This document shows, in pieces, positions 22,046-56,832 of a stretch of 64,000 nucleotides of DNA. The notes under the pieces are model-generated. The model was not told where the DNA came from. It saw only the letters and a program-made list of their open reading frames with translations, and ran no database searches. The position numbers and the translations under genes were made by a program. Source of the stretch: Polytrichum commune (taxonomy: Eukaryota > Streptophyta > Polytrichopsida > Polytrichales > Polytrichaceae); NCBI GenBank assembly GCA_950295325.1, contig OX485808.1:684501-748500 (forward strand), written 5' to 3'. Each line of letters starts with the position of its first letter. Position 1 is the stretch's first letter.

Positions 22046-22199
22046 AGGGGGCTTCGTGCGGTGATACAAATTTTTTGGGGCAGAAAAGGTTGATTTTTGA
22101 ATTTTGATGCACTTTAGGAACAGAATTAGATCTGGTTGTATGTTGGTAAGGGCCCATGAATTCTTTAGATATAGGCAAATTCCAGTTATGCTCTTTGTG
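22046..22199. other. 3' flank of the decayed frame and LTR target site
   Basis: Non-coding. It ends with TTGTG (22195-22199), the left target duplication of the solo LTR. Confidence 0.6.
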
Positions 22200-30384: not shown

Positions 30385-31383
30385 GGACTTCTGAAGTATG
30401 TGGAGCGACAACTCGGCAGAGGTGACCATTTTAACGATGTGGCAAGGACGTTGGGATTGGGAAGAAATGTTCTTAGGAGGAGGTTGCAGGAACTGGGATG
30501 GAGGGGGGTTTATGATACACCCAGTGTGGCCACAGGAGACGTCATAGCAGCCATTCACAGCGAAGTTCCAGTTATGCGAGCTGGAGTGAACTGGGGCATC
30601 TGTAGGGTTCAGTGCAGACTTCGATTGTCAGGACTGAGGGTCGGCAGACAGGTGGTCCCGGGATGCTTTGAATATAATGCACCCTGAACATATGGAGCGG
30701 CGTCAACTCGGCCGGCTGAGAAGGGGGCAGTACACCATCACGAAGCCCATGATCCTATGGCACATGGACTGTAAGACAATCTTGATTTCTATTTTTGTCC
30801 TTTATTGTTAACCTTGCACTTGAGGTTGTTGCGAGCGTTCATTCACTGTTCCTGTGTGCAGCATATGACAAGTTGGCCAAGTGGGGAATCAAAATTCACG
30901 CGGGCATAGATGGAGGGACACATTTTGTGTTGTGGGCTCGCGCTGCAATGGATAAACGACAAACTACCATATACGACGCGTATGCTGATGCCGTTCGCCG
31001 ATTTGGCCGTCCCCTCCGAGTAAGGTCTGACTTTGCGGCAGAGCATAACATGGTGGAGGCGGATATGAGGAGGGGTCGGCCCAACATATTCCGGCCATTT
31101 CTACGTGGCTCCTCTGTGCACAACCAGCGGATCGAACATTTCTGGAGGCAAGTTTGGACGCATTTGATTTTTTACTATAAACATTTGTTGACACTAATGG
31201 GCCGCCATGGTTTCATAAACCTGGTTAACCCCGTTCAGAGGGCGTCCATGGAGGCTGTATTCCTCCCGGCCATCCAGCAAGACTTGGCAAACTTTGTGGC
31301 GACATGGAACGTCCACAGGGTGCGGAAAATCAACCAAAATGGGCGGGACTTGGCGGGGCATGTACCTGATTGCATGTTCTAGT
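30385..31383 (+). pseudogene. IS481-like integrase/transposase gene, one intron, one frameshift
   Basis: The first part encodes a helix-turn-helix (about 30400-30510, VARTLGLGRNVLRRRLQELGW) and a linker typical of IS481/rve-type integrases. Near 30655 the frame shifts by one, then continues to WHMD. A 91-bp GT-AG intron (30771-30861) restores the frame and leads into the catalytic core: the first Asp in WHMD (30767-30769), GIDGGTHF, the second Asp in RSDF (31029-31031), and Glu in HNQRIEHFW (31134-31136). It thus keeps a full D-D-E triad. The frame ends at TAG 31381-31383; no in-frame ATG is visible at the 5' end. Related integrase-core proteins are known from animals and fungi. No terminal repeats were found. 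Confidence 0.75.
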
Positions 31384-34708: not shown

Positions 34709-35680
34709 TGTCGCAACCCTTGCTAGCCCCCTTAGCAATCTTGCCAATTTTCAATTCTAGCAAAGGTTACGAGCGCTAACCATTCGCATTCCGCCATGCT
34801 AATGGTTAGCTCCTCCTACCCCGGACCTTATAGTTCATAGGAGGGAACCAACCCTCCTACTTTGCTTTCGGGACTCACCCCTTAATCGGTAACCCATTTC
34901 CCCAATGTGGACTTCCATCCATGGAAGTCCAATCCTATGTTGATCATCGCATTGCCGGAGCAACACTACAACAACCCGAAGCATACTAGGCAACTATGGC
35001 CTCACAATAGGCCAAAGCCCATGGAGGCCTTGCCGTTCGGCCTCGGGTGGGTGAGGCCACACCACCTCACCCATATAAGCCTCTAGGACTTCACGCGGGG
35101 CCCCTACCCCACCGTCAACCAACCTCTTGTCTCTCTACCAAGAGTTGGGGCCAAGTGGACATTTTCCTTTAGCCGCTGGGCCTAGAAGCCCCCACAGCTT
35201 CAGACCATCATAACTTCCTTGTATGATGTCTGATCATAACAACCAACCACTCCATCCTCATCTACGCTTCACGTAGATGCCGATGGACTCCTCACTTGCC
35301 CCATTCGGGCAAGTGGTGAGGAAGTTATGCCTGTTTGAACCTTGGCAGTCCCGGGAATCATTCCCAGGCACTGCTGTACCAGGGCGCTGTCCCGGGACAG
35401 CGCCCCACTCAAATGGCCATAACTCCTAGCTCACACCTCCGATTGAGGTGTTCTTGACCATTCTAGAATCACCACGCCATGAGCTACGCATAGCTCATGG
35501 CCCTACCCTCGTGCCTCCTAGTCTCCGTGGGTGGGAGGCGTTCCCAACGCCCGGGGCCCTCACCCACACTAGGATCACTTGGGCCCTCTCACCAACGGCG
35601 CCACAAGTCCCGGGTGTCACTCCGGGGTCCCCCTTGTGCCCATGGTGTTTCGGGCACTCCTCATGGAGAGGTGCGCGACA
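34709..35680 (-). mobile_element. Solo LTR, 972 bp, inverted, with GACTT target duplications
   Basis: Same family as 22200-23179 but in the opposite orientation. On the plus strand it starts TGTCGCAACCC and ends GGTGCGCGACA. GACTT flanks both sides (34704-34708 and 35681-35685). It contains the same perfect 24-bp palindrome (35382-35405). No internal region remains. Confidence 0.93.
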
Positions 35681-36160: not shown

Positions 36161-36998
36161 TGGGCTCACTGCGCGGCTGCGAAGGCGGGGCTACTGTGCA
36201 TATTGTATTCCATAGGCAACCCCTCGGAGCTAAGGATTAGTACTACTCTTGTAGCGAACAATCTCCCGCAACGAGAGTCCCAATCAACCATCACCAAACA
36301 TCTCAAGAAGCTCATTGGAGAAGACAATGTCACCGGAGTCACTTTCGGGTACCAAAACAAACAAGACGACGATAGGCAAGCTGGATGGTGCCACATTCAA
36401 TGCTTAAACGCCGCCGTCTACACCGAATGGTTGCACAAGTCTTCGTATATCTTCGGAAGGAGAGTGGACTTTGTCCCACACAAAGGTAGCATAGATGGCT
36501 CCGACCCTAACCCCACCGCCATTCGCCTCGCACACGCACCGGTACGAGAAGTCATCGCTCAAAAGGCTCAAGCCATGAGCAACCATGCCGCCGCCTCCCC
36601 CTTAGCTCTTCAACAAAGCCATGAAGGACCTCACCGAAACAATGGACGTTAAACTCAACACAATCGCCAACAACATCAACCACAACACGGACACACGAAT
36701 CGAGGCATCCACGAAAACACTCAAAACACATGCGGCCAACATCCACAACATCATGAGTGCAATGGCCATAGAGTTTCAACAATCGAACCATCGCATCCAC
36801 AACATCATGCAAACACTCGCCGCCACCCTCCCGGACCCCCCTCCCCCTCAAGTCAACACCGCAAGACTTCCTCACATACCACATCATCCCATGGACGACA
36901 CCAACGCGGCACAACTAGCACCCCCGGGATTCCATAGTACCCACTACCGGAACTCCCCATCAAGTTACCACAAAGGCCCAAACTCCCAAAATGAATAG
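36161..36998 (+). pseudogene. LINE ORF1, RRM-like nucleic-acid binding protein, broken
   Basis: The first part (36161-36652) has an RRM-like fold signature: strand LRISTTLVANNL, helix region TITKHLKKLIG, GVTFGY, GWCHIQCL and FGRRVDFVPHKGS. No ATG precedes the domain in this frame, so the start is lost or non-AUG. Between 36606 and 36652 the frame shifts by one into a second part (36621-36998) with a long polar helix and a Pro/His-rich tail, ending TAG at 36996-36998. ORF1 proteins coat LINE RNA. The stop overlaps the ORF2 start in ATGAATAG. Confidence 0.7.
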
Positions 36999-37614
36999 CA
37001 ACCCATTAGCATACACATGGACGCTAGCTACATACTATATATGTTTTCTATTACTTATCAATAAAAAGTGCACACGCACTAAGCAATTCAATATCACTCT
37101 TATCCATGTTATTATAGCCCCACTACTATGTGCTCATTTCACCACCTTAACCCCCCACGCTACTCCCACATCATCCCACAATACAATAAACAACCCATAC
37201 CAAGTACACTCTATTACCACCCTACACCATAACCATACTCACTCATACAACTACTCACACAACATAACACTCACAATAATTAAAACACCCACACACACAC
37301 TTTTATATAATACCATCCCAAACTCACACAAAACAACACCTCAAAAAGAAGAGCTATTTTACACACTAAAAGAAACACTAAAAACCCACATATCAGGCAC
37401 ATCCACCCCATCCATACTAAACTCACATACACCTCCACTACCTCACACCACCCCACCATTAAAACATCATCACATTGGATATAGCCACATAAACCGCCAC
37501 AACATTACTTTAGTCAACTTCTACACAATAAGACATACACACTTAAAACGCCCAACATTACACAAAACCTTTGCACAAATTGTTGACCTCCAAACACTCA
37601 TCCTAAGAAGTGGA

Positions 37615-37638
37615 GACATACAACTCAACCCGGGCCCA
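37615..37638 (+). other. 2A-like ribosome-skipping motif 1 in LINE ORF2
   Basis: Encodes DIQLNPGP after a hydrophobic approach (LQTLILRSG). It fits the D-[VI]-x-x-N-P-G-P core; predicted skip between Gly215 and Pro216. Confidence 0.8.
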
Positions 37639-38010
37639 CTTTCATACATCTATAAAAATCCCCTTATAAAAAACACACAAGAAACAAAACAATACTCTAT
37701 TAAAAACCCACCCGTATTCCAATATGCCCAACTAGTAAGCCTCTCGCCCATACACTTACCACAACACCCCCTTAATCCCATCAAATTAGGCCAAAGCCAT
37801 TCACACCACAAACCAACCGCCCCAAAACCCTTACACCCAAACTCACAATATAACACCATAATTATACATAGACATATAACTATCATATGGGCACTACCCT
37901 ACTTACTCCAAATTCAACCACCACCCGTCATACAATCACATAACAAGAAACCTCAATTAAGCATAAGCACACAACACCGCAATCAAAACCATCTCCTCCT
38001 ACAATGTGGA

Positions 38011-38034
38011 GATATACACCCTAACCCAGGACCT
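38011..38034 (+). other. 2A-like ribosome-skipping motif 2 in LINE ORF2
   Basis: Encodes DIHPNPGP after NHLLLQCG, close to the LLxxGDVHPNPGP form seen in many animal LINEs. Predicted skip between Gly347 and Pro348, 132 residues after the first. Confidence 0.85.
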
Positions 38035-41000
38035 ATGCCTAATCTATTACAAAAACACCCCCCGGCTCACAAAAGACGTCAACATACATATTTCCTACCT
38101 AGTACGATCAAATTCCACCGAGAATACCAACACTTGGCCGAAACATTTAAACCCCTTTTCCAAAACACACATCCGCTACATACACAAATAATACACTCCC
38201 TCCCATACTTGTATAATCACATACAACAATATAATCACCATCCTCCCCCAAGGGTCATCTATGCAATAGTCGTAACCATTAGTCCCTCCACTCTAACATG
38301 TAACACACTCCTACAACACCAACCAATACAAGAATGGACATCTCAACTACTAAAAAGAATGTCAAGATTGCAAAACCCACCAGAAAGACACATAGATACC
38401 CCACACCCATATACACAATTCTGTCATATATATAAAGATACTATCACCCCTCCCAATACAATACACAAACAATTCTATGATTATATACATCTAGACCATA
38501 ACTCCGTTAATATAGAAAAATTCCCATATCTACCAAGACAACTACTAATGGAGGCACTAAGATATAACGAACCTATAAATGAATACACACGTCCCAACCC
38601 CCCCATTACTTATCATTCATCACCCTCGCCCAACCCGGTCCCGCTAACTAGTCAAGAATCATACGCCATAACCTGGAATGCCTCCTCATTAAACACTGTC
38701 ATGCCATGTCTACAAGAACTAATCACGGACCCCCAACAACCCCCATCAATCATCACCATTCAAGAAACCAAGCTTTCCGCCACTAAATCCACAAAATATA
38801 CACAACATATATTCCCTCAATACAAACTTTTCTTTAACAACACACACAACATCACAAGAATCACACGCCAACAAATGACATACAGAGGATATAAAGGAGG
38901 ACTACTACTACTAATACACAACAAACATGCATTTCCATGCAATCTTTCCAAAATTCCCACCCCCGCAAACATATCCCCATTCCTCCAAGTAACGCGCATA
39001 GCAAACCAACCTTTACAACCATGGCTCTTAATTAATTTATATATGCCCTCGCATGAGGAGGACCTACCTCTCATCCCCATTATACAAACTAACATCACTC
39101 ATCAAATAAATACACACCCTAATCACGTATACATCCTATGTGGAGATTTTAATAGAGATGTTGTTTTGATTGGAAGACAAAACGACCAACAAACCACACC
39201 GCCACAACCGGAAGATTACCTTTGGCGATCCTTTACAACCAACCTAGAACTAACCTACATCCCGACAAACACAACATTTTCAAGGCAAGGAGGACATAAT
39301 TACACACAAAATAGCCTAATAGATGGATTTTACATCAAAACCCCACATAACCACCAATTCACCTCAACTACAAATCAAACAACACACCTAAACTCCGATC
39401 ATCTACCTATACAACTCCGAATACCTCCAAACACACTTATAGCAAGAGAACCAATCACAACCCCCGACCCACCACCTAGGATATTCAACCCTATACCCAA
39501 GGAAAACCTAGAAACCTTCCACACCAAATTCTTCGAGGACAACTCAAACCAAATCGACGAGCTCATACAATTGTTAGAAAATAACCACTTGACAAATGAA
39601 CAATGGCAACTAGCATGTCAATCACTAAGTTCCCTCACCGACATCATTACAACCACCGTCCTAGAAACATGTAGTGCCCACCCATTCCCACGCTATCAAA
39701 CAAAATTGCTAAGCAAGGAGGCTACCTCCCAAAGAAACTTCAAAAAGAATGGAAAATACATCTATCTACCTACCATCTTATTAGAAAAACAATATATATC
39801 ATAAAAAACAACCCAAATTGGCGAACTCACCCCATTATCACACAAGAAATTAACAACCATACCTCTGTCACTATACCCCCACCTCCACATCCTTCCCACC
39901 CATACGAAACATGGTTAGCCAACTTAGCCAACATCGCCAAAGAAGCTAAAAACAAAGCCCGCAAAATAACAACAAACTACACAACCCAACAAATCAAAAA
40001 ATCCATATGCAAATACCAACAACTATATGACAAAAGTCCCAAAAAAATTAATAGAAAAAATCTTCAAGAATATTGACACCCCCCTCTAGACTGCCTAATA
40101 AATCGATTCAATAATATCCTTACAAGCCCCACAGACATCGCACAAGAAATACATGTACAACAATCCATAAGCAATCGACCAACCGTCCTAACATGCCGTT
40201 ATCAACCCGATCACCTACAACAATGCCTATGTGGAGTTAGACAATATCCGTGGCACGACCTCAACGGATTTACTATAGAAAAGAGAGGCGAAGCCTTAAC
40301 TCCCTTACACACATACCTAGACCAAGAAACATACGATATATGTCTTAAAAACCTTACCAACGGGAAAATGCCGGGACCCGATCAAATTCCTAACACCATA
40401 CTAAAAAATATGCCGCCAAGATTCCACAAGCTTCTACTATTATTTTTTACCCACTGTTATAAACAAAAACAAATACCTGAAGCTTGGAAAACGAGCCTTA
40501 CGATACTCTTATACAAAAAATGCAACCCCCATCACCTCACCAACCATCGGCCCATTGCACTTGCCAACACTATTTACAAACTATTTACTAGCACGCTCAC
40601 TAGTATACTCTCTTCATACGGGGAAAAACATCAAATTCTACATGATAGCCAAGAGGGCTTTAGAGCTGAAAGATGCACCGCCCGACAACTTCAAACCCTC
40701 ATCGCCGCATTAGAAGATGCACGACTCACTAACCAAGACATCTACATTCTATACATAGACTTCAAAAATGCCTTTGGCTCTATCGACCATGCTAGACTCC
40801 TCGCCATTATGAAAGACCTCGGTTATCCGCAAGATGCCGTAGCACTAGTAGGAAATATCTATTCACAATCAACTACCACATTTATCGGGGAATACTTCGA
40901 TAAAACACTACCCATACCCATACAAAGGGGAACCATACAAGGAGATACGCTAAGCCCTTACCTCTTCATCATCTTTCTCGAACCATTACTTAGATGGCTA

Positions 41001-44000
41001 CAACGCGGACCCCACGGATACACCTTTAAAACCTCTAATACAAAATTAAGCTCCGCGGCCTATGCGGACGACCTAGCGGTAATATCCAACAATACGACAT
41101 CCATCCAACAACAATTGAACAAGCTAGATAGATATTGCGAATGGGGCGAAATGGACCTCGGCATCCCGAAATGCGCAATCACAGGATGCCCAAATAAATC
41201 CAAACTAAATGCACAAGCCTTTAAAACACATTTAACGGCCATCAATATTAACTTCCGAAACCAACCAATACCGATACTAAGCCAACACGAACCATATGTT
41301 TACCTCGGAATCAATTTAGTTCCATCACTACAATGGAAAACACAAACGCACATCACAACAACCAAACTAATCAAACAATGTAAACTCCTAACCACATGCC
41401 CAGCCACCATGAAGCAAAAAATACAAATGGTAGACACAGTCATAAGAGTCGGCATAGCCTATAGCTTTTATGCCGTCCCATACTCACTTCCCGCTATTAA
41501 AAAACTAGATAAAAGAATAATTGCCCTACACAAAAATATATGTGGCCTCCCGAAATGCCTATCAAACGCCGTTACACAACTTCCACAACATATGTTCGGA
41601 ACCGAAGCTTTCTCACTAAAAAACGCCTATATAACATGTATCGGAGAACAACTCATAAATGCCCTCAACGACCAAGGAAAACTTGGAAGAATATATAATG
41701 GATTAACCAAACATATCCTTGCCAAACATGGCGGATCACTCCACTTACCACGAATATCCCCACATGATTGCATGAGATCACCAATTACTAGAACATTATA
41801 CCTACTCAAAAAAACTAGTGACACTCACCTTGGAAGCACACTTGCAAAATTCCCCCTTCACCCTACGCCATTAGAGATACAATGGATGAGTCAAGCACAC
41901 CATATACCCACACTAACTCCCACCACTTCCCTCAAATACTTACATAAATTAATTTTACACAACATAACCAAACTAAAACACATAACGCACCCCAATGGCA
42001 CACACCTCATGACAAATGATGAATTCAAGCACTATTATGCCCCACCCACTAAACTAGTTAAAACCGCCCTAGAACACACGCGTAAGATATTTTGTAAACC
42101 CCCTTGTCACAACCAATGCCCAAATACTTGCCTAACACATACGACACCCAATACTCTCAAGGACGCCTACAAAATACAAAATCATCATATAAACACAAGC
42201 CTAAGTAGACATAACATACACCCCATGCCACCCCCACTACCGGAATATCCAAAACCCCCCTTACACATCCAACAAAACCACATACAATTCCCAATACAAT
42301 CTATCATAAACGACCACCCTCACACATACAAAGACAAACACAAAATCACAAAACAATACACATCCTACCTTTGCCAATGGATACTTCCTAACGAAACCAA
42401 ATACCATAAATGGCTCCCACAAAGAGACTTGTTCCCTTGGAACAACCAAAACACTATAAATCATAACATACTACTCTTAACACAATACTACACCCAAAAA
42501 CTACACCAACACTTCACCAACATTCTCCAAATAAACTTTAGTGAAGCACAAATGAGAGACACAAGATATGTCCGCCCACCACAAGACATACCCCTGTGCC
42601 ACATTCATATCAATGAATGCAACCCAGATAATGACATTGAATGCACACAACACATCATTCAAAGCCAATATGGCGCATCACACATCTATGATAATGACGG
42701 ACGCCACCTAATTACCATTCCCGAATTAAGACTACAATGGCTATGGGAACAATACCAAAATGCATTAAACAAACCACACAACTTAGAACCCCCCATACAA
42801 TCCTTTGAAAAAGAAGTGGCATGGTTGTATCAAAGATACAAATATAGAATGCCCAAAAACGACCCCCTCAAACTCTCACAATACACCCTCCCCAATGCCA
42901 TCATAGAAAACATCATTGACTCCTTCCACATCACCCATTCCTACTTCTCATCACCAATCACATGTCCTACTACATTGAAACAATTCTCCTCCCCATTTTC
43001 TAGGGACAAGGTATTCGGGTCAATAGGCACAGCATTCCAACATAAATGGGCAGGGGTGGGATATGCCCACCCGCACACAGAAAAAGACACTCAACAAGCC
43101 CTACATTGGGCTAGACTTGCCGCCAAACATAACCCAGACACAATCACAATACTCATAACAACTGACCCAAACTAGTACCACAACCTCAACCCCCATGAAG
43201 GCCCTTTCCCAGATTCTCACGTTATCTCACATTTCAAAGTAGACACCATTGCATATGATGAACCCACAATACCCCCGGAATTACGAACTAACCCACGAAC
43301 AGAAAATCATGACATCCGCATATTATGTATACACCACAAACACACGTCCCCCGGATCATGTGAATATGCGAATCGTATGGATATAATTAGCACTACCCTC
43401 CAAATACCCACATCATTTCACACACCGGCACCGCCTACACCTATAAACACCTTAGTAAATAGAAGCAAGAAATGGTCCCAACTTATATACCCGCCCCCCC
43501 ATCCACTTACAAACCAAACTTCTAACACTCCCATATACACGAATCAAGACATATGCCTACCCCTCAAATACCACCCACAATTTTGCTATTACACGGATGG
43601 ATCATTCATGCCACCCAATGATATAACCCGAGGGCATTGGAGAAGAGAAAAAGCAGGGTATGGTATATATAACCCTTTCAAAAACCTCAAAATCACAGAA
43701 AGACTACCCGGACTCCAAAATATACTTAGGGCAGAACTTATGGCTATACACCACACCCTCCACCTCCTCACTACCACATACCGGAATGAACCGGCACATA
43801 TCTTACAGATTGTCTCAATGTCTTATACCTCCTGAACACGCAAACTAAACACCCAACACTACACAATAGCCACCCGGATAAAAAGATACTAGAATCCATA
43901 GTTAAGTTGTTGCAATCCCGCACACAAACCACCACACTACACAAAGTCAAAGCCCACACAAACATTCAAGGTAACGAACAAGCCGATAAATTAGCAAAAT

Positions 44001-45049
44001 TGGGTTGTGAATTAGAACATAGAGACGCTATAGCCACACATGAGCATGCGCACCCCACGCCATACTACCTCCAAAAAGATTGGTGGCATTCAATGCAAGA
44101 AACACCAGACAAAGGCCCCATCCGACACCTTGGCAAATACATCATCAAACACGATAGAAAACACAACCTATCCATTCTAGCAACCCAAACACATCAATTA
44201 CATAAATGGCTTGATAACAAAGATATCGATAAAACATTATCAAATGACTTTTGGACCAACCCGGCTATCTCAGACAAGCAAAAAACGTGCTTAGTAAAAT
44301 TCCGAACCGGACAATACATGGGACAAGCTAGAAAACAACTCTTTTTTGGTAGAATTGCATACCCATCCCATACATGTAACATTTGCAACTCATTAGAAGC
44401 GGATACATGGCTACATATACTCCTTAAGTGCAAACAACAACACATCCACGCACTAATTACAAAAAGACATAACAAAGCAGTATGGGAAATACGCAAACTT
44501 CTTGTCTCAAATAGAATAACAAGACACTACATACTCATGAACGCAGGTACATATACTGAACTACCCCAAGACAACACAGTACCAACATGGTTACTACCCT
44601 GCACATGTGGTACCCAAAGATGTCATTGTAACGCTAGACTCAAACCCGACATTCTATGCATTATAGGGCACCCTTACAATTCCCCACCACCAGAAGCACC
44701 CACACCAGAAATTACAATTCAATTTATAGAATTCACATACTGTAATGACAGATTCTCCACTGAAACCATAAATCAAAAAATCACAAAATATCAACCACTC
44801 ATAAATAATATCATCGCAAAGGGTTGGAACGTAGCCCCACTTATTGTATTAGCATCTGGTGCTCGAGCCACAACTCACATCCCCTCAATGAACGAACTTG
44901 AAACAAAGCTTAAACTCCCCACATCACAAATTAGGAACACATTCAAACAACTTAACATAATTGCCATACAATATGCACACTCAATATTAATCCACAAAAG
45001 ACGAATAGAAAATAGACAACCCATCACAGACCTACAAAATCATAACTAA

Positions 45050-45600
45050 AATTAGAGAGGGGTAGTGGTCAGACCACTAGTTATTAAGTTACCACCTATA
45101 GCTCAGAAAGGCGGGGAGTAGCCGGCTGGTTGGCATAACTTTCCTGCCTATGATTAACTCACTTGCAGCACCAAGTCAAAGTGTATTGCACTAACACGCT
45201 CAGACGGATTCAACGCGAATCGAACCCGGACCGTATTAATACAACACGCACGTCCTTATCCAACCAACCTTGGAACCATGACTTGGCAACCAACAACACA
45301 ATCAACCATCATTTATTCTCAAACAAATACGCACGCTTCTTGTCTCAAACAAAGTAGCAAAACCCACACAATTCTAAATTAAAACCCATGCACCTACACA
45401 CCACCCTCCCCCCCCCCCCGGTTCAACCGGTTAAAACATCAGTTACTAACATAGTGTCTACTCCCTGCAAAGGGTGAAGTAGTATTACACCCAACGCCGC
45501 TACCCTGGGGTACGGCCACGGTTGTCCTACGAACATACACTTTATTCACTCCGGTCCCTAGTAGGGACCGGAGTTCTTTTTTTTCTTTTTCTTTGAAGAG
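45050..45600 (+). other. LINE 3' UTR with hairpin and tRNA-like box
   Basis: Non-coding. The minus strand contains GGGTTCGATTCG (about 45213-45224), a close match to a tRNA B box, with D-arm-like GGTTGGATAAGG upstream (about 45254-45265). A perfect 12-bp hairpin (45548-45574, loop AGT) sits before a T-rich run, probably near the 3' end of the element. No poly(A) tail is seen. Confidence 0.5.
45548..45574 (+). other. 12-bp perfect stem-loop followed by T-rich run
   Basis: ACTCCGGTCCCT and AGGGACCGGAGT pair around a 3-base loop, followed by TCTTTTTTTTCTTTTTC. It is a candidate 3' recognition structure for the LINE reverse transcriptase or a processing signal. Confidence 0.6.
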
Positions 45601-45631
45601 GTTACTACCATCTCAAGAACCAATGTTTTAT

Positions 45632-45636
45632 CATGA
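45632..45636. repeat. 5-bp target site duplication, left of gypsy copy B
   Basis: CATGA, repeated at 56833-56837. Confidence 0.95.
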
Positions 45637-47629
45637 TGTGAGGCCAAACCCCCCACCCTTAAGCGTCCGTAGTCCGAGTAGTAGGTTTGGGCTCACATTC
45701 CTCCGCGGTATTGGATTTGGACTTGGATGAGTCCATAGTGCAAGGTTCACCCTTCAAGTGGTCTTGGATTTAAATGGAATTTCACTTTTAACAACTCAAT
45801 GTACAATTTCAATACGTATGTGGAGAATGCACAAGTTAACTATGTTATTTTAACTTCCTTATGCTCGGGTGCTATTTTGTCTTTGTTTGCTTCTAACGTC
45901 CATCCGGCCGCTTTAGCTACACAAGCCCTTAAGGATATCCCTCTCCTAAATGGAGTCCGTGCCGTTGACTCTATACTACCACTTGAACTATCACTTGTGT
46001 ATTCCGTATCGCTACTATAAGAGGTCTCACTTGGTGTCTCCATACCGTACATAAGCCTTTAAGTATTAAGAAATACTTATGTGACTTATGTCAATCTCTC
46101 CCTCGCACCTTTGGTCTTTGCTTCCTTTGTCTTGCCATCGCGAGAGTGCTCCACATTCTCCATTAATTTGTGCACGTGGTTTATTTTTAAAGAGATGATG
46201 CAAGTGTTAAAAAAAACACTATTCTCTATAGTCAATCTCAAATACATTTACTTGTGAAAGCCACACATAACACTAACTAGCATAATGTAACTAACTACTT
46301 GTTTATGAGCTAATTAGGTAGGCTATCTACTAAGCTCCTTCATGAACCCATCTCTTTACTTTCTAATTACATAAACCTAGCTCCTTCATAAACCCAGCTC
46401 CTTCATGAACCCACAACTTTGTAGTTGTAATCCCCAACTACCTCACTAATTATTCAAGCCCTTAACTAATCTTCCTACCTAATTTCCCTAATTCTACTAA
46501 CAACCCCTTTCTAATCACACAATTCTTCTCTAATCCTAAAATCCTAAAATCCTAGAGAGGAGAGGGGGAGAGAGAATTTCCTAACTTCACTGAGACTAAC
46601 TAATCCACACAAGTATATTTTTGCACTCATCACAACATCAAGTGCTCAACTCTTAAACATGGAACTTGCAACCACGTGTATTCAAAACATGAACTTTAAG
46701 TACCACAAATTGGAATCATGAATTAACTTTAAAATCCTTCACGTCAACACTAATTCTACCAAGAGGTCAAGCCCTCTTCAAGGCTAACAAGCCTTGGCTC
46801 TCAAACTAAAAACTAAGCACACACATGTGCTCCAATATGGCTTCCCACACCCACACTTATAACTCGTGGGGTGCCTTGGAGCACAAAGGAAAGAGAGGAT
46901 GAGTGAGGGAAGAATGAGGGATTATATAGTAAGCTTGAGGGGGTGAGCACCCTCAAGGCTCACGATAAGCCCTTGAGATTTCCTCCTACTTAGTAGGCGC
47001 CAATCCTATCTTCTAAGCCTTCCTCCCTCAAATGATCAACAAGGATCCTAATTCGAACATTTAACTAGCCTTGGCTTTCTACCTACCACACTTTACCAAA
47101 CTTGGGATGCTTCAACCCAAACTTAGCCTCCTTCGCTTTCCGCCGCCATAACTTTCTCCCCTTACTTTCCCAAATCGTCGCTCACCACGTAATTCAAACC
47201 ACGATGCTTAACTCGTGATTTGATTGGTGCTTTGAGAATTTGCTTATCCTCCACCTTGCCTTCTTCCTTGGGCCTTCCCCATTAAGTGGCCATGATGAGG
47301 TGGTCCACTTGTGCGCTCCATGTGATCCTCCATTCATCCCAATTCGAATGCACTTGCCTCTTGAGTCACTTTGGTTGTCTCCATCCATTTGTACTAGCCT
47401 ACTCACTAACTACTCAATCCAAGTTCTCCTTACCTATCCTCATTCAGTCAAATCCTTCCGAAGGTAAAAACACAATAACAACTCACATCCTAGCCTCTTA
47501 CAACATGGTACTTCTAAGACTAACATTTCACTTTTTTTATATTTTTGTGAAGTAACATGCTACTTCAAAGTGCATCAACTAACGTTTCAAGGGTCTAAGA
47601 CTAAATGTGGGCACCCTTTTGGGCTCACA
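45637..47629 (-). repeat. 3' LTR of gypsy copy B
   Basis: 1993 bp, nearly identical to 54840-56832. It contains a tandem of CTCCTTCATAAACCCAG-like words that is expanded in copy A. Small open frames inside (such as 45799-46020) occur in both LTRs and are not supported as genes. Confidence 0.97.
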
Positions 47630-47690: not shown

Positions 47691-50600
47691 TCAAGCTCGG
47701 TACTCCTTACATCTACTTCCCGATGTACGGGTAGGAAATAGCTCACCATTCAACGTTTCCAATTGAATTGAATTATTAGGAAAGACCTCATAGACAAGGT
47801 AAGGTCCTAACCATACCGCATTGAATTTCGCCGGAAATTCAAGCTTTCGTGCGTCTTGAATCATGACCATCATTCCCGGTGTTAGGGCCCTTCTCTTATG
47901 TCGTTTGTCGAAAGTAATCTTTCTCCTTCTTTGGATTGCCTCAATATGTTGAGCCGCCATTCTCCTCCCTTCGTCAAGTGCTTCCAAATCGGTTAGTCGA
48001 TTTCGTAAGGATTGACTTTCGGTAAGTCTCGTACTCACGGCCACCCTAAGTGACTCGACTTCATATTCGATTGGTAGTGTCGCTTCAAGACCATAGACTA
48101 AGGAAAATGGTGTAGCACGCGTAGTTACCTTATAGGTTGTACGGTATGCCCAAAGTGCCGCCGTTAGTTTCGTATCCCAATCCCGCTTCGAGTCTATAAC
48201 CGTCTTGCGTAGTACACTCACCAAAATTCCGTTAACCCTTTCCGTTTGTCCATTGGTTTGTGGGTGGTAGGGAGTAGTCTTCCGGTGATCAATTTTAAAT
48301 TTCTCTGTCATCTCTCGAATCAAGTCATTCAAAAAGTGAGTACCCCTATCGCTTACTAGGATCTTCGGCACCCCGAACCGCGAAATTATGTTTTCGTACA
48401 TAAATGTTGCCGCGTGTTCCGCCGTGTCGGTCTTCACCGTTTTGGCTTCCGCCCACTTGGTGAGGTACTCGGTTGCCACCACAATATATTTCATTCCTTT
48501 TGAAGATTGGGGATGGACCTCACCCACATAGTCGATGCCCCATTTTTCGAAAGGAATTAAGGGTAATGATACATGTAAAGGCATCTCCATTCTAAGGTCG
48601 TCTCGGGCATACCGTTGGCAAGCGTCGCATTTCCTTACATAGTCATGGGCGTCCTTAAATAGTGTAGGCCAAAAGTAGCCCGCTCTAAGTATTTTTTGCC
48701 CGGTGAGTTGACCCGAGAAGTGACCGCCGCAAGCGCTATCGTGGCAAGCGATTAAAATCGCTTCAACCTCCGTTTTTGACACGCATCGTCGTAAAATACC
48801 ATCGGACCCCCTTCTAAACAACCTATGGCCCACTACAACAAATTGCCTACTATTTACCCTCACCTTCCTTCTCTCTTCTTTTGTCCACTCTTTGGGCAAC
48901 TTGTGGGTTGTTAGAAATTCCACTATGCCCGCATACCACGCCGGTGTAGAAGTGACCACAAAGAGGCTATCATCTACTAACATATCATTTACCGGATTTT
49001 TTCCTATCTCCTCCGACAACCTAGACAAGTGGTCCGCTTGTAAATGCATACGACCCGGTTTATATTCCACCGCGTAGTCGAATTCTTCTAATAACAAAAC
49101 CCACCTAGCTAACCTACCACTTAACTCAGCCTTGTTAATTAGATACTTGATAGCCATGTGGTCAACAAAAAATACAACCGGGTTGCACATGAGGTAATGC
49201 CTAAACTTTTTAACGGAAAACACCATGGCTAGGCACTCCCTCTCCGTTGTAGAGTAGTTTCTTTCGGCGGGGGTCAATTGCTTACTCGCATAAGCTATAG
49301 GTTGATCCTTCTCTTTTTCTCCCGTTGCTTGACAAAGCGCACTCCCTATTGCCACATTACTAGCATCACAATAGACGTGAAAAGGTTTACCCCAATTGGG
49401 TGGTATCAACACCGGATAGGTGCTCAACCTATCCCGCAATTCCTCAAAGGCTTTTTGACAAGCATCCGTCCACTCGAATTTGACATCCTTTTTGAGCAAA
49501 TGGGTAATGGGCACCGCTATCTTTGAAAAATTAGGAATAAGTTCCCGGTACCATCCCACATGTCCTAACAACTTAGAGATCACCTTGGAATTGGTTGGAG
49601 TTGCCAAGTCGCTTATGGCCGCAATCTTATCCGGATCGGGTTCTCTACCTTTCTCACTAACAACATAACCCAACAACACTCCCTTATTCACTCCCAAAAA
49701 TGTCTTATCCGGGTTCAATGCTAACCTCATCTTCCTACACCTAACCAATGCCTCCCTAACACAATGTAGGTGATCATCCACATTACTTTGTGTGCTAAAA
49801 TCGTCCACAAAGACGGTCATGAATTTGAACAACAAGTCGGTGAAGATATACATTACTAATCGTTGGAAAGTAGCCGGGGCATTACATAACCCAAATGGCA
49901 TCACTACCCACACAAAAGTACCCCAAGGTGTAGTAAAAGCCGTTTTATGGATATCTTGGAGGGCTATGGAAATTTGATTATAACCCGCATACCCATCCAT
50001 AAAGGTATATCGCGAATGACCTCCAACCTCCTCAAGCAACAAGGTGATAAAAGGTAAGGGGAAGTGATCCTTTTGTGTGCACGAATTCAATTTCCTATAG
50101 TCGACACAAACCCTTAATTTCCCATTTTTTTTCTTTACTAAGACCATAGGAGAAACCCAATCCGTGATTTCCACCGGCTTGATAAACCCGGCCTTCAATA
50201 ACCTTTCCAATTCTGCTTTCACCAACAATTGCAATTGAGGATTCATCCTCCTCTCCTTTTGTCTAATTGGCCTCGCCCCCGGAATTAAAGGAATCCGGTG
50301 CTCTACCATTTCCCTAGGAATTCCCTTAAGCTCATCGTAGGACCATGCAAAAGTATCACTAAACTCATCCACCAAATTGCTATACTCCCTAACCTCTTTC
50401 TCCCCCAATTTGGAGCCCATCTTCATTTGTCGGGTTTTTCCATTCTTTAATTTCACATCCACGTACCGCCAATCCGCTTCCGACACATGTGCTTGTTCCT
50501 CTTTGTTCCGATACCAATCGGAAGGCACATTGGGGTAATCTTTCACATCTTGACCTACAACTATCCCCGTAGACGTGGTCTTGAAATGTAAAGGCTCCTC

Positions 50601-53600
50601 CAATTTCGATGACTTAATAATCACATCCTCCTCTTGAGTCCCATCTACATGAATTAAACTAACCTCACCCTCTTCCACGTCATCTACCCAAGGTGTTAAC
50701 CCACCGCTAATCCACTCTTCCTCGGTGAGCACCTCACATGGCTCCAACAATGAGCCCTCTCCTAAACTAACACTAGGAAATTCACTCCCTAAGCCTACTT
50801 GGTGAAATGTAACCATTACATCAACCTCGGACTCGGGGTACTCCCTTAGCCATTGGGCATAATCCCCATTATCCCCATAATTGTAAAAATTAGGACCTAG
50901 ACTTCCCGAGCCCGAATCTATAACAACCCTTTGACCTTCGGGATGGACGACTCCCACCAATGCCTTGCCAATCTCATTCTCGTTTAAGTCATCAATTTCC
51001 TTCTCCAATGGCAAATACATCTCCTTCTTCATCCATCCTTCTAATGAACCAATGGACACTATGACCCTATTACCCTCCGGACCATAAGTGATGGATGGTT
51101 TAGGTCCACCCCAATTGACCATAGCATTCGCCATCCGCAACCAAGGCCTACCTAGCAAAATGGGGAAGGTGTCCTTGTTGGAGTGCATTTTAATGACATG
51201 GAAGGTGACCAAGTACTCCTCACCTCCCGTAGTCATTCTACAATCCTTGATCATCCCCAAAGGCGTAGTCGAACTTTGATTTGCCATATTTATGACCAAA
51301 GGTGAAGGCCCCGTGAATCCAAGTCCCAATTTTTTCATAGTATCCTCCGGTAGTATATTTAGACTACTCCCTCCGTCGACTAGCACATTAGGAACCACCT
51401 TATCTACTATAACAACTTCTATTTCTATAGCTTTCACGTCTCTTCCACCTTGTGATTGGATCCTAGCGGCTATTTTAGCTTTCACCTTCCTCATCCTCTT
51501 GTGTACCGGCATTCCCTCCTTTAATGTTTTCCTTGCCGTGGGTGAAATTTCCAATAGTTGGCCGAAAGTAATATCCGCCTTGAGTGTACTAAGGTCCGCC
51601 CACAAGTCGTACCCGGTAGATCTTTCCACCTTAGAATTACCCACTACGTCGAATTCGTCTACGGGAACCCCCGGTCCTTCCCATTCACCCACATCGCTAT
51701 TATCCAAGTCATGTACCGCATTAGTCCTCTCCCTATCTTGTAAAATTATATTTTCCCTCTCCACATCCTTAGTAGCTCTTCTAGCTACCCTATCCAACTC
51801 GGAGAGATTAATCTCTTCATCCGAAGAGTAATTTCCTTGCTCTCCTATTCCTACCTCCAACGGGGCATCCCCTCTCCTAGCCCTAGTAGTTACCGCTAGT
51901 GCAGGTGCTTCTTCAACCACACCCTTACCCTTCACTAACTCATATGTAATAGCATTGGTGTGAGGAGGCCATTGACTTTGCTCCTCTCCAATTCTCGTTG
52001 GGAGAGGAAGCATGTCATCACATGTGGCCTCCAACACTCCATCCATGAACCTAACATCTTGGGAGTTAGATGGTCCCGGATCCGTTGGAGGCGCTTGTCT
52101 CCCGTTACTACCATTAGGTGGAACTCCTTGTCTATTTTGTATTGGAATGTAACCGGTTGTAGTTTGCAAGCCCGCCGGTGGATGAAAAGTTTGCCTAGCA
52201 TTACTATGGTCATAGTATAAGTTAGGTGGCCTAAGTTCATTGGCCGGTACTCCTTGTGGCCTAGCACCTCGCATATTATCCCTTGCTTGTTGTTGTGGAT
52301 TAGCCACCGGGTAAGGGACATTAATTATTTTGTCCGGTTGGCGACACGTATCCGAGGGATGACTTCCTCCACAATTGCTACAATTAAACTCTTGACCTTC
52401 GGACCAACATTGTCCTTGAGCGTGCCACCTTCCACAAAAGGGATGAAATTCCTTCTTCTCTAAATTTTGGCCACCTTGCCCTCTAGGTTGTGGTCCTCTA
52501 TTGCTTCCATTTCCATAGTGAGGTGGCGCTTGACCTCGTTGATTTTGTTGAGGTGGGTTACCGTTTCCTCTTTGGTCACGGTTTTGTCCACTTCTACAAA
52601 ATTGACGCGTGTGGCCCGGTTGGCCACATTGGACACACCATAATCCGGAAGAATGCCTACCCGACTCAACCGGGGGTGGAGGCCCCGGTTGTTGACTCCG
52701 GATCATTAATGACATTTGATCCGTGAGGCTTTGCATTTGTTTTATCATAGCCTCTTGGAATCCTAGTTGGCTAGCACCTAGTCTTCTCTCAACCTCCTCC
52801 AAGTGTGGATCCGTTCTAGGGGCCGGTAGTGCCAAAAGAGGTGCCGGTTCCCTAACCGCTAAAGGTCGGGGACCGGTGTCCACAATGGCATATGGAATTT
52901 GGTTCTCATACTTAGCGGGTTCTACCGCTACCACCCTAGGGCGTATGGGGATGAATTGTGGGATCAATTCATCCTCCCTTCTCCATAGCCTTTCGTGATC
53001 TTTATCCAAGTTTTCAATATCTCTAGCCGCACGCTTGGCATCCGCCAAGGTCAAGGGATTCCTTTCTAGAACACCCCTAATAGTTCCGGACTTAAAAAAC
53101 CCTTGAATGAAAAATTGCTTTAGCGTGTCGTCGTTGAGCATGGTACCCACAAATCTAGTGCACACTAAATCAAACCTCCTAATGTAAGCCGAAATTTCTT
53201 CCTCCCTTCCTTGCTTCAATGACGACAATGCCCTTAATGCGGTACTTTGACCCACTTCCGGCCTAAATTCGTTAAGAAACTCCCTTTGTAATTGTTCCCA
53301 TCCCCTAAAATGTCCCTCGGCATGATCCCGATACCATTCATAGGCTTCCCCCTCTAGAGTGGTAGGAAACCACACTAACCAATAACCCGGGTCGGTTATG
53401 AGGAAGCTAGCCAACCGTTCGATATACCGTTCCATGTGCCGAGAGGGGTCCTCATCCTTGGTCCCATAAAATTTAGGGAGATGAGATGGCATATCCATCG
53501 CCGCTAAATTTTGTGGAACCACAATTGGTAGGCCTCTTGGCCTAACCAATGGGTCTATTGGAGGTATAGGAGGTATGGGCGGAATTGGGGGTATGGGTGG

Positions 53601-53930
53601 TGGATCCATCCCCCGTTCCTCGGCCATGGTGACCGGTGAACTATTCAACAATCCCCTATCAACTTCTACCGGGAATTCTTCTCTAAGTGTGTAATTTTCC
53701 GAAGAAGTTTCACCACTCAATTTGGAGGGAGTGATCTCCTCTTCAAGTTGAGCTCCAAGTTCTAAGGTGTCTAGAATTGACCTAGTCCTAGGTTCGACGT
53801 TCAAACAACTCTCTATTCTAACATTATCTTGTTCTAATCTATCACTGATTTTAGAGGACCGCCTCTTTCGAGTAGATTTCTCTAGTCCTACTATCAAACT
53901 TGGTTTTTGTGAGCGAGTCCTACCTTGCAT
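47691..53930 (-). CDS. Gag-Pol polyprotein of gypsy copy B, intact
   Basis: 2079 codons from the ATG at 53930-53928 with no break. Gag core at about residues 145-330, CCHC knuckle (CVQCGQPGHTRQFC, about 430) and a second cysteine cluster (CSNCGGSHPSDTC). Protease near residue 847 has VDGGSS in place of D-T/S-G, with partner ILLGRPWL. The reverse transcriptase carries VCVDYRKLN, FMDGYAGYNQI, MPFGLCNAPATFQR and FVDD (near 1372; usually YxDD). RNase H has YCDAS and ERECLA (from about 1515). Integrase has an HHCC finger (about 1720-1760) and a DDE core (GIDYVG, SDRGTHF, NGQTERVNG). The C-terminus is short and has no chromodomain, so it is a non-chromovirus plant gypsy, nearest in style to Tat/Athila. 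It makes particle proteins and enzymes for copy-and-paste transposition. Confidence 0.96.
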   Translation of the reverse strand: MQGRTRSQKPSLIVGLEKSTRKRRSSKISDRLEQDNVRIESCLNVEPRTRSILDTLELGAQLEEEITPSKLSGETSSENYTLREEFPVEVDRGLLNSSPVTMAEERGMDPPPIPPIPPIPPIPPIDPLVRPRGLPIVVPQNLAAMDMPSHLPKFYGTKDEDPSRHMERYIERLASFLITDPGYWLVWFPTTLEGEAYEWYRDHAEGHFRGWEQLQREFLNEFRPEVGQSTALRALSSLKQGREEEISAYIRRFDLVCTRFVGTMLNDDTLKQFFIQGFFKSGTIRGVLERNPLTLADAKRAARDIENLDKDHERLWRREDELIPQFIPIRPRVVAVEPAKYENQIPYAIVDTGPRPLAVREPAPLLALPAPRTDPHLEEVERRLGASQLGFQEAMIKQMQSLTDQMSLMIRSQQPGPPPPVESGRHSSGLWCVQCGQPGHTRQFCRSGQNRDQRGNGNPPQQNQRGQAPPHYGNGSNRGPQPRGQGGQNLEKKEFHPFCGRWHAQGQCWSEGQEFNCSNCGGSHPSDTCRQPDKIINVPYPVANPQQQARDNMRGARPQGVPANELRPPNLYYDHSNARQTFHPPAGLQTTTGYIPIQNRQGVPPNGSNGRQAPPTDPGPSNSQDVRFMDGVLEATCDDMLPLPTRIGEEQSQWPPHTNAITYELVKGKGVVEEAPALAVTTRARRGDAPLEVGIGEQGNYSSDEEINLSELDRVARRATKDVERENIILQDRERTNAVHDLDNSDVGEWEGPGVPVDEFDVVGNSKVERSTGYDLWADLSTLKADITFGQLLEISPTARKTLKEGMPVHKRMRKVKAKIAARIQSQGGRDVKAIEIEVVIVDKVVPNVLVDGGSSLNILPEDTMKKLGLGFTGPSPLVINMANQSSTTPLGMIKDCRMTTGGEEYLVTFHVIKMHSNKDTFPILLGRPWLRMANAMVNWGGPKPSITYGPEGNRVIVSIGSLEGWMKKEMYLPLEKEIDDLNENEIGKALVGVVHPEGQRVVIDSGSGSLGPNFYNYGDNGDYAQWLREYPESEVDVMVTFHQVGLGSEFPSVSLGEGSLLEPCEVLTEEEWISGGLTPWVDDVEEGEVSLIHVDGTQEEDVIIKSSKLEEPLHFKTTSTGIVVGQDVKDYPNVPSDWYRNKEEQAHVSEADWRYVDVKLKNGKTRQMKMGSKLGEKEVREYSNLVDEFSDTFAWSYDELKGIPREMVEHRIPLIPGARPIRQKERRMNPQLQLLVKAELERLLKAGFIKPVEITDWVSPMVLVKKKNGKLRVCVDYRKLNSCTQKDHFPLPFITLLLEEVGGHSRYTFMDGYAGYNQISIALQDIHKTAFTTPWGTFVWVVMPFGLCNAPATFQRLVMYIFTDLLFKFMTVFVDDFSTQSNVDDHLHCVREALVRCRKMRLALNPDKTFLGVNKGVLLGYVVSEKGREPDPDKIAAISDLATPTNSKVISKLLGHVGWYRELIPNFSKIAVPITHLLKKDVKFEWTDACQKAFEELRDRLSTYPVLIPPNWGKPFHVYCDASNVAIGSALCQATGEKEKDQPIAYASKQLTPAERNYSTTERECLAMVFSVKKFRHYLMCNPVVFFVDHMAIKYLINKAELSGRLARWVLLLEEFDYAVEYKPGRMHLQADHLSRLSEEIGKNPVNDMLVDDSLFVVTSTPAWYAGIVEFLTTHKLPKEWTKEERRKVRVNSRQFVVVGHRLFRRGSDGILRRCVSKTEVEAILIACHDSACGGHFSGQLTGQKILRAGYFWPTLFKDAHDYVRKCDACQRYARDDLRMEMPLHVSLPLIPFEKWGIDYVGEVHPQSSKGMKYIVVATEYLTKWAEAKTVKTDTAEHAATFMYENIISRFGVPKILVSDRGTHFLNDLIREMTEKFKIDHRKTTPYHPQTNGQTERVNGILVSVLRKTVIDSKRDWDTKLTAALWAYRTTYKVTTRATPFSLVYGLEATLPIEYEVESLRVAVSTRLTESQSLRNRLTDLEALDEGRRMAAQHIEAIQRRRKITFDKRHKRRALTPGMMVMIQDARKLEFPAKFNAVWLGPYLVYEVFPNNSIQLETLNGELFPTRTSGSRCKEYRA

Positions 53931-54839
53931 TCCATAAGAATCGATCGACCCTCACTTGACCACACATAATCCTAGCAATTCCCCTCTTAATATTTTCACT
54001 TGTCTTGGTGTGGTTATAATTTTTTTAGGAGGTGAGGAAAAGAACCTACAAGCCCACTTAGGTGAAAGAATCCCAATAGGGGATAGGCATGTTCATGTTA
54101 ATTTTTTGGTTAAGTCGGAGCATCACCTCCGCACCTTCCCGCAAATTAACACTCACCACAATACCGATTGTGAGGGGGTGACCTTCCGAGTAGATTATGT
54201 TAAAAGTCGAGGCTTCACCCTTCAACTTCTCACACCATCCACAATTCGGGAATTACCCTCTACAACGGATAACAACAATCACGAGTACAAAAGGCATTCC
54301 TTAATTAGTTAATGAGTTCACTTTGAAGAAATAAACATACCTTGAGCAATCGCATCCCCCTGTGAGTTAGCACTCCCCTCAATCGTGACTCAATGTAACA
54401 ACACCATAAACTTTGTGAAATATTAATTTAATCTAGAGCATGAAATGACAACTCCCAAAACTTTGAGACTCACCCCGAGGTGAGTGTCAAAGTTCAATGT
54501 CCTAAGGTGAATTTACCCTCTAATGTTTTAATGAGCTACTCGGTTATAGGTTCCTTTTAAGTTCTTAGCAAATCCCCAAAAAGGTTGAGGACGTACCTTC
54601 GCCGCGCTCCTTCCTCAAAAATGAATTTGCGTAATTGACAATGCAATTCATTCCAAGGAATAGTTGAAATACAATGAATTCAAATGTAACCCAAAGAGAG
54701 AATACTTACCGAGTTTCGGGTGCTCCTTCCCTTCTCTCAAGTTTGTGTCTCCAATTTTTCCTAGTTGCCTCCAAGTCTCCTAGTCGCCTCCAAGTCTTGT
54801 AACTACCTTCCGCTTCGCTCCCGGCGGACGCACCAATTA
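53931..54839 (-). other. Leader (5' UTR) of gypsy copy B
   Basis: 909 bp between LTR and gag, equivalent to 1167-2075 in copy A. No conserved coding frame in the sense direction; plausibly holds the RNA packaging signal. Confidence 0.7.
54818..54835 (-). other. Primer binding site of gypsy copy B
   Basis: On the minus strand, four bases (TAAT) after the 5' LTR, comes TGGTGCGTCCGCCGGGAG. It is complementary to a tRNA 3' end of the type CTCCCGGCGGACGCACCA. From memory this best fits plant tRNA-Gly(UCC), with about one mismatch. Confidence 0.75.
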
Positions 54840-56832
54840 TGTGAGGCCAAACCCCCCACCCTTAAGCGTCCGTAGTCCGAGTAGTGGGTTTGGGCTCACA
54901 TTCCTCCGCGGTATTGGATTTGGACTTGGATGAGTCCATAGTGCAAGGTTCACCCTTCAAGTGGTCTTGGATTTAAATGGAATTTCACTTTTAACAACTC
55001 AATGTACAATTTCAATACGTATGTGGAGAATGCACAAGTTAACTATGTTATTTTAACTTCCTTATGCTCGGGTGCTATTTTGTCTTTGTTTGCTTCTAAC
55101 GTCCATCCGGCCGCTTTAGCTACACAAGCCCTTAAGGATATCCCTCTCCTAAATGGAGTCCGTGCCGTTGACTCTATACTACCACTTGAACTATCACTTG
55201 TGTATTCCGTATCGCTACTATAAGAGGTCTCACTTGGTGTCTCCATACCGTACATAAGCCTTTAAGTATTAAGAAATACTTATGTGACTTATGTCAATCT
55301 CTCCCTCGCACCTTTGGTCTTTGCTTCCTTTGTCTTGCCATCGCGAGAGTGCTCCACATTCTCCATTAATTTGTGCACGTGGTTTATTTTTAAAGAGATG
55401 ATGCAAGTGTTAAAAAAAACACTATTCTCTATAGTCAATCTCAAATACATTTACTTGTGAAAGCCACACATAACACTAACTAGCATAATGTAACTAACTA
55501 CTTGTTTATGAGCTAATTAGGTAGGCTATCTACTAAGCTCCTTCATGAACCCATCTCTTTACTTTCTAATTACATAAACCTAGCTCCTTCATAAACCCAG
55601 CTCCTTCATGAACCCACAACTTTGTAGTTGTAATCCCCAACTACCTCACTAATTATTCAAGCCCTTAACTAATCTTCCTACCTAATTTCCCTAATTCTAC
55701 TAACAACCCCTTTCTAATCACACAATTCTTCTCTAATCCTAAAATCCTAAAATCCTAGAGAGGAGAGGGGGAGAGAGAATTTCCTAACTTCACTGAGACT
55801 AACTAATCCACACAAGTATATTTTTGCACTCATCACAACATCAAGTGCTCAACTCTTAAACATGGAACTTGCAACCACGTGTATTCAAAACATGAACTTT
55901 AAGTACCACAAATTGGAATCATGAATTAACTTTAAAATCCTTCACGTCAACACTAATTCTACCAAGAGGTCAAGCCCTCTTCAAGGCTAACAAGCCTTGG
56001 CTCTCAAACTAAAAACTAAGCACACACATGTGCTCCAATATGGCTTCCCACACCCACACTTATAACTCGTGGGGTGCCTTGGAGCACAAAGGAAAGAGAG
56101 GATGAGTGAGGGAAGAATGAGGGATTATATAGTAAGCTTGAGGGGGTGAGCACCCTCAAGGCTCACGATAAGCCCTTGAGATTTCCTCCTACTTAGTAGG
56201 CGCCAATCCTATCTTCTAAGCCTTCCTCCCTCAAATGATCAACAAGGATCCTAATTCGAACATTTAACTAGCCTTGGCTTTCTACCTACCACACTTTACC
56301 AAACTTGGGATGCTTCAACCCAAACTTAGCCTCCTTCGCTTTCCGCCGCCATAACTTTCTCCCCTTACTTTCCCAAATCGTCGCTCACCACGTAATTCAA
56401 ACCACGATGCTTAACTCGTGATTTGATTGGTGCTTTGAGAATTTGCTTATCCTCCACCTTGCCTTCTTCCTTGGGCCTTCCCCATTAAGTGGCCATGATG
56501 AGGTGGTCCACTTGTGCGCTCCATGTGATCCTCCATTCATCCCAATTCGAATGCACTTGCCTCTTGAGTCACTTTGGTTGTCTCCATCCATTTGTACTAG
56601 CCTACTCACTAACTACTCAATCCAAGTTCTCCTTACCTATCCTCATTCAGTCAAATCCTTCCGAAGGTAAAAACACAATAACAACTCACATCCTAGCCTC
56701 TTACAACATGGTACTTCTAAGACTAACATTTCACTCTTTTTATATTTTTGTGAAGTAACATGCTACTTCAAAGTGCATCAACTAACGTTTCAAGGGTCTA
56801 AGACTAAATGTGAGCACCCTTTTGGGCTCACA
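54840..56832 (-). repeat. 5' LTR of gypsy copy B
   Basis: 1993 bp, drives minus-strand transcription. The TATA-like element is at 56124-56131. Confidence 0.97.
56124..56131 (-). promoter_or_regulatory. TATA box in the gypsy 5' LTR
   Basis: TATATAAT on the minus strand, about 700 bp into the LTR, followed by a pyrimidine-rich stretch (CCCTCATTCTTCCCTCACTC) like a plant Y patch. It supports transcription in the gag-pol direction. Confidence 0.55.

Follow-up and report, generated by a model that had tools for sequence, protein, structure and literature searches.

Among long interspersed nuclear elements (LINEs), the Dualen/RandI group carries both an apurinic/apyrimidinic-type endonuclease (APE) and a restriction-like endonuclease (RLE), according to the accessible parts of two papers (PMC4640811; PMC3636483). 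These papers, and a third whose accessible part reports the group in Chlamydomonas relatives (PMC8226300), attribute it to Kojima and Fujiwara 2005 (as cited in PMC4640811, PMC3636483 and PMC8226300), and dual-nuclease LINEs are relevant to the replacement of RLE by APE during the evolution of LINEs (PMC4640811). LINEs with a 2A-like (StopGo) motif occur in sea urchin and trypanosomes (PMC4981915, accessible part). We analyzed a stretch of 64,000 nucleotides from Polytrichum commune (assembly GCA_950295325.1, contig OX485808.1, positions 684,501 to 748,500), called the window below. It contains a LINE copy that very probably belongs to a high-copy, recently active family of the Dualen/RandI dual-nuclease type in a streptophyte, operating by the mechanism proposed below. 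Titles and abstract openings of the open-licence papers listed revealed none describing Dualen or RandI in plants, 2A motifs in algal or plant retrotransposons, or PCIF1 in retroelements. LEAFY is specific to streptophytes, and four LEAFY matches were found in the host genome (best E-value 7e-33).

A first-pass annotation, made from the sequence alone, had proposed a Dualen-like LINE with both nucleases at 36991-45049. The dual-nuclease reading stood, since APE, RLE and RNase H occur in one element, the RLE fold was recovered and copies exist in the genome. The bounds had to be revised to about 36215 to about 45584, and the domain list was correct as far as it went, leaving out 2A-like motifs and a PCIF1-like domain. 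Upstream of the reverse transcriptase (RT), the arrangement known from Dualen/RandI LINEs, the annotated APE motifs were located at four sites (ITWNA at 38668, QETK at 38758, GDFNRD at 39139 and SDH at 39391), together with a match to PF14529 (Exo_endo_phos_2) of 31.4 bits, above the cut-off. RNase H lies downstream of the RT, again as annotated, and its PF00075 match is split across two frames; this domain is given for Dualen/RandI in the accessible part of PMC4640811. At the C-terminus the annotated CCHC finger is followed by KPDIL (44639), FIEFTYCNDRF (44723) and KITKYQPL (44777), all in the expected order within 44375-44777. The suspected PD-(D/E)XK fold was confirmed by profile-profile and fold comparison, both of which match RLE and place it downstream of the RT, as in Dualen/RandI LINEs. 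The RLE was detected solely in these two ways: phmmer with the 419-aa C-terminus of the window against the PDB returned neither R2 nor another RLE at E-values up to 10, and profile A2 against the PDB gave no RLE among the best 60 of 118 rows. The best PDB matches of the RT were R2 proteins (91.6, 86.3, 85.9, 75.3 and 71.2 bits), followed at 53.2 bits by entry 8c8j, which we take to be human L1 ORF2p.

To the RT tree 85 proteins were offered (84 of the 120 relatives listed, plus P0258), and 67 with enough RT coverage were kept. The family's seven rows form one clade (100/99), which joins 44 rows; each of the seven rows bearing the name Parachlorella, Haematococcus or Pleodorina is among these 44. 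On the opposite side stand the other 16 rows (100/99), of which eleven bear an RLE-type label, given to ten for their CCHC-RHN pattern and to P0239 for the name R2DM. The seven named algal rows show APE by pattern or Pfam label, and none of them has a CCHC-RHN or KPD pattern; P0184 alone among the algal-side rows shows a KPD...E...KY pattern. Six peptide patterns for P0258 brought up no relative in viral contigs. As a separate observation, P0184 and P0166 carry the extra Pfam label PF00628, presumably a PHD finger, and P0202 carries PF02099 (source name 'ubiquitinyl hydrolase 1'), which we take to be a Josephin domain.

The genome searched comprises 408 Mb in 64 contigs, with about 406 Mb in seven of them. 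Using the 419-aa C-terminus, 100 of 6143 first-look candidates were scored; besides the window, 16 were 97-98% identical and the rest ranged down to 74%. These 16 were fetched together with their flanking sequence, and a 3-kb piece was taken from the 95% copy L011. A hairpin followed by (TTC)3-9 marks the 3' end in 15 of the 16 (the exception is L025), and exact direct repeats of 11-14 bp surround 11 of them, in a search run without a shuffled control. In four of these 11 copies up to 3 matched bases belong to the tail, giving target duplications of about 10-14 bp. No duplication was found for L009, L019, L023 and L024, and L025 has no end to test. The 5' ends defined by the duplications agree with the copy comparison for L012, L016 and L017, in which homology to class-mates ends within about 15-40 nt of them. 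The target sites of the 11 duplications differ in sequence; only L021 and the 3' flank of the window look alike, both beginning near TTGAAGAGGTT. Nine of the 11 flanked copies are 12.4-13.7 kb long (L016 including a 1-kb insertion), and L014 and L022 measure 9.9 and 10.9 kb. In nine of the 11 (L010, L013, L014, L015, L016, L017, L018, L020 and L022) a G immediately follows the duplication, at boundaries uncertain by a few bases; it might reflect a cap-templated or added G.

Copy L009 has a single uninterrupted frame of 2169 aa from APE to RLE, with RT, PCIF1_WW (38.1 bits), RNase H (55.6 bits) and RLE motifs. Longer frames exist elsewhere, among them one of 2919 aa with both APE and PCIF1 matches (not fetched whole). 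A 1463-aa open reading frame (ORF) upstream in L009 was considered as ORF1 and rejected, being a Ty1/copia polyprotein. The mean ratio of nonsynonymous to synonymous differences (pN/pS) among copies is 0.27 for APE, 0.24 for RT, 0.33 for the PCIF1-like domain, 0.16 for RNase H, 0.09 for CCHC-RHN, 0.18 for RLE and 0.28 between the 2A motifs and the APE frame; stop or gap codons were skipped, partial copies included and no significance test applied. Such values fit selection having acted on all of the domains in the lineages from which these copies arose.

The front of ORF2 carries two 2A/StopGo-like motifs, GDIQLNPGP and GDIHPNPGP, both upstream of APE and in its frame. The pattern GDI..NPGP did not arise in 20,000 shuffles of the leader/APE frame of the window, nor was a 2A motif present on the opposite strand of 17 copies (the 16 fetched and the window). 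Two or three motifs are present in 15 of the 17; L024 and L025, which match the window in their 3' part only, have none. In L018 a single frame holds the 2A, APE and RT motifs; in L017, L019, L023 and the window a single frame holds 2A and APE. Searching with the N-terminal ORF retrieved 17 proteins, 16 of which carry a 2A motif, and GDI..NPGP does not vary among 11 aligned proteins whose leaders are otherwise weakly conserved. Several copies contain a repeated block like YYTWNNS.LILL.GDI..NPGP, a recurrence that suggests module duplication. The StopGo core is defined as (D/G/C/N)(V/I)ExNPGP in the accessible part of PMC12846837; compared with it, GDI.xNPGP is present, and of the 34 motifs in the 17 copies only 7 have E at position p14 (16 have H, 8 Q, 2 K and 1 Y). 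According to the same part of that source, a variant with H at p14 was >95% active, and E14Q mutants reached 56% or 26%. StopGo activity at the APE-proximal site, where p14 is H, is plausible from its sequence, and we infer activity for the 2A motifs as a group. This 2026 survey, as far as its accessible part goes, holds that natural StopGo use by plant viruses is without evidence, though StopGo functions in plant cells (PMC12846837); given this, it is notable that a mobile element of a plant contains natural, repeated StopGo-like motifs.

The sequence in front of the APE-proximal motif differs between copies. Pairwise BLAST of the 12 copies with a placeable APE-proximal motif (L010, L015 and L022, missed by the motif pattern, and L024 and L025, lacking the region, were left out) gave five leader classes: A (L018, L023 and the window), B (L012, L013), C (L009, L016, L021), D (L014, L020) and E (L017, L019). 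Leader-containing blocks are 96.3-99.6% identical within classes. For 53 of the 57 pairs that combine different classes, the near-identity of the body (95.2-97.6%) sets in 8-86 nt before the GDIHPNPGP codons, and for the remaining four, all B-D pairs, 349-374 nt before them. At this point identity falls within a few nt from 95-98% to patches of 65-86% or nothing, which is also what lies farther upstream, with the sole exception of C-D, where a 95-97% stretch runs in shifted register. Class D has the class C leader up to about -280 and then the last module of class B, and the joint lies just past an internal NPGP motif with codons from -291 in L020 (GDIYTNPGP; not recognised in L014). The class D leader is a mosaic, its class C and class B parts meeting at the internal motif, and in this way the C-D exception agrees with the general pattern. 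Recombination or template switching near the 2A motifs is the simplest account of the leader switch. Leader exchange at a 2A motif, if true, would be an unusual evolutionary route for a LINE.

Between RT and RNase H, PF12237 (PCIF1_WW) matched the window with 36.9 bits (cut-off 31.1) and the open ORF of L009 with 38.1 bits. This match, the residue correspondence with PCIF1 and the fold of the relative P0079 show the PCIF1 methyltransferase fold. The NPPF motif has a catalytic role in PCIF1. In the window its position reads AHPHT (within 43059-43079); across the family HPH, HPP or HPN stands in its place. The Haematococcus relative P0205 has one 2A-like motif, GDVEANPGP, and PF12237 labels also occur on algal-side or other distant relatives (P0166, P0169, P0184, P0187 and P0234); thus neither feature is unique to this host. 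We infer that the PCIF1-like domain binds the cap or the 5' RNA, and finding a PCIF1-type domain within a LINE points to the RNA cap playing a part in insertion.

We propose that the mRNA would encode ORF1 plus an ORF2 polyprotein, in which the 2A/StopGo motifs at the front most likely release leader peptides as the ribosome continues, yielding a separate APE-RT-(PCIF1-like)-RNase H-CCHC-RLE protein. This protein would nick DNA and prime reverse transcription from the RNA end that bears the (TTC)n tail, and this would produce the target duplications of about 10-14 bp. The first nick would probably be the work of one nuclease and the second that of the other. Because each leader ends in a 2A motif, leaders could be exchanged without altering the enzyme, which would explain the sharp leader-class switch there. 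As a tentative extension, possible rather than probable, this would be a streptophyte two-nuclease lineage in which tandem StopGo sites serve as module boundaries, new leaders are spliced to a constant enzyme by recombination or template switching at 2A, and a captured cap-methyltransferase fold, no longer a standard methyltransferase, holds the capped RNA 5' end during insertion. With its 2A array, at which leaders are exchanged, and its PCIF1-like fold, both with predicted functions, the element is more interesting than the first-pass reading suggested.

Several observations weigh against the dual-nuclease, StopGo-separated reading. None of the 16 fetched copies has a single uninterrupted frame from the leader through RLE; in L009 a stop separates the leader frame from the APE-RLE frame. 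The first half of the C-terminal model folds poorly (mean pLDDT 63 overall), and the tree has no labelled Dualen, L1, RTE, I or CR1 rows and an unsettled bootstrap. The APE-proximal motif has H and motif 1 has Q instead of the canonical E, and E14Q left just 26-56% activity in mutant tests (PMC12846837, accessible part). The last point also favors the view that the 2A-like motifs are relics, with NPGP kept as part of a polyprotein, no skipping and ORF2 as one fused protein; p14 is non-canonical (Q, H, K, Y) in 27 of the 34 copy motifs. We consider this view doubtful, as two or three motifs are kept in 15 of 17 copies, GDI..NPGP is invariant across 11 proteins amid weakly conserved surroundings, and the H variant was >95% active when tested (PMC12846837, accessible part).

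Very fast leader evolution without exchange could be read from the weak conservation of leaders among distant relatives. The synonymous divergence of the body between copies is only 0.035-0.085, which leaves too little time for divergence of the leaders in place; given this divergence, the high identity within classes, the abrupt drop between them and the class D mosaic, we rejected this explanation as very improbable. An active methyltransferase acting on cap-adjacent adenosine of the element's own RNA was judged distinctly unlikely from the NPPF-position motif: HPH falls on NPP in the PCIF1 alignment, and the position reads AHPH, AHPP or AHPN in eight of nine aligned family rows (the ninth being out of frame) and in all eight loci of a second set. 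An ordinary plant L1-type LINE (APE-RT-RNase H) would account for an RT preceded by APE and followed by RNase H, an order possible in plant L1s (PMC4640811, accessible part), and its C-terminus would resemble RLE by chance. This was rejected on fold and profile as extremely improbable. For the RT, PDB scores favor R2 over human L1, and the tree contains no plant L1. Chance likeness is excluded because the C-terminus has relatives with E-values as low as 5.8e-245, 100 scored genome matches and pN/pS of 0.09-0.33. The Dualen/RandI-type reading is retained.

Table 1. Features of the LINE copy in the window.
Feature	Position	Strand	Basis
LINE copy, 5'-truncated and broken, ending in hairpin and degenerate (TTC)n-type tail	36215..45584	+	homology to own-genome copies L018, L023; copy 3' ends
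3' portion of ORF1, spread over two frames (36161-36649 followed by 36606-36998)	36215..36998	+	frame analysis; no Pfam match
ORF2 N-terminal leader, exchangeable, class A (common to L018, L023)	36991..38007	+	copy comparison
2A/StopGo-like motif 1, GDIQLNPGP	37612..37638	+	pattern; 0 matches in 20000 ORF shuffles
2A/StopGo-like motif 2, GDIHPNPGP, APE-proximal, p14 = H	38008..38034	+	pattern; alignment of relatives
APE-type endonuclease; N, E, D/N, D, H motifs all present	38660..39410	+	PF14529; motif positions
Linker after frame change, closed by in-frame stop at 40074	39675..40076	+	frame analysis
Reverse transcriptase, YADD at 41058	40536..41315	+	PF00078 (RVT_1), 94.9 bits
PCIF1/CAPAM-like methyltransferase-fold domain, first part (continues beyond stop 43173)	42768..43172	+	PF12237; fold of relative P0079
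RNase H, split by frame change at 43790-43835	43581..44008	+	PF00075
CCHC zinc knuckle (44375-44431) and RHN motif (44462), as in R2-type LINEs	44375..44482	+	motif patterns
Restriction-like endonuclease, PD-(D/E)XK: KPD 44639, E of IEFTY 44723, K of KITKY 44777	44630..45049	+	profile-profile and fold
3' untranslated region	45050..45547	+	within block common to other copies
Terminal hairpin (45548-45574) and tail	45548..45584	+	(TTC)3-9 in 15/16 fetched copies

The window copy starts where homology to L018 and L023 begins; both continue upstream, so the window copy lacks the 5' part. The 3' homology of most copies stops at 45581-45603. In-frame stops at 40074 and 43173 and frame changes at about 36606-36649, 39675-39804 and 43790-43835 break it; its main frames are the two of the ORF1 end, 961 aa (leader and APE), a short linker, 1032 aa (RT), 219 aa (start of RNase H) and 419 aa (end of RNase H, CCHC and RLE). 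The frame equivalent to ORF1 in L018 (L043) is open over 1558 aa and has no Pfam match. Part of the 3' untranslated region (45286-45400) shows short diverged matches, in the same order, to the element's own C-terminal coding region at 44430-44560 (82% over 39 nt and 73% over 30 nt), and sits in a block aligned across all 17 loci. Rfam and tRNA scans of the window gave no match.

Direct repeats of 868 bp, 99.8% identical (45633-46500 and 54836-55703), surround a 2086-aa ORF (47691-53951, minus strand; Ty3/gypsy-type by eye), probably a young long terminal repeat element directly adjoining the LINE 3' end. A repeat of about 975 bp occurs at 34709-35680, 22197-23179 and 60742-61712 (92-94% identical), and its unit also interrupts LINE copy L016. 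Long ORFs at 8079-12029 (minus strand) and 30786-31382 (plus strand) look transposase- and integrase-like by eye.

Compared with the PCIF1/CAPAM cap-specific adenosine methyltransferase, the domain described here has HPH for NPPF and lies inside a LINE polyprotein. The 2A LINEs of sea urchin and trypanosomes share a 2A-like motif in a non-LTR retrotransposon, whereas the window family adds RLE, two or three tandem motifs and leader exchange at the motif. With R2-type RLE LINEs it shares the CCHC-RHN-RLE C-terminus and its fold; in contrast to them it has APE and RNase H, so that RLE is not its sole endonuclease (APE pN/pS 0.27), and it lacks one specific repeated target, its 11 duplicated insertions among 16 copies lying at different sites. 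Dualen/RandI LINEs resemble it in that a single element unites APE, RT, RNase H and RLE, and its RT falls on the same side of the tree, which has no Dualen-labelled rows, as named green-algal LINEs. The window family differs from them in its host, a streptophyte that has LEAFY genes, in its tandem 2A-like motifs and exchangeable leaders, and in the PCIF1-like domain, and as a high-copy family it offers fresh, datable copies for asking which nuclease makes which cut.

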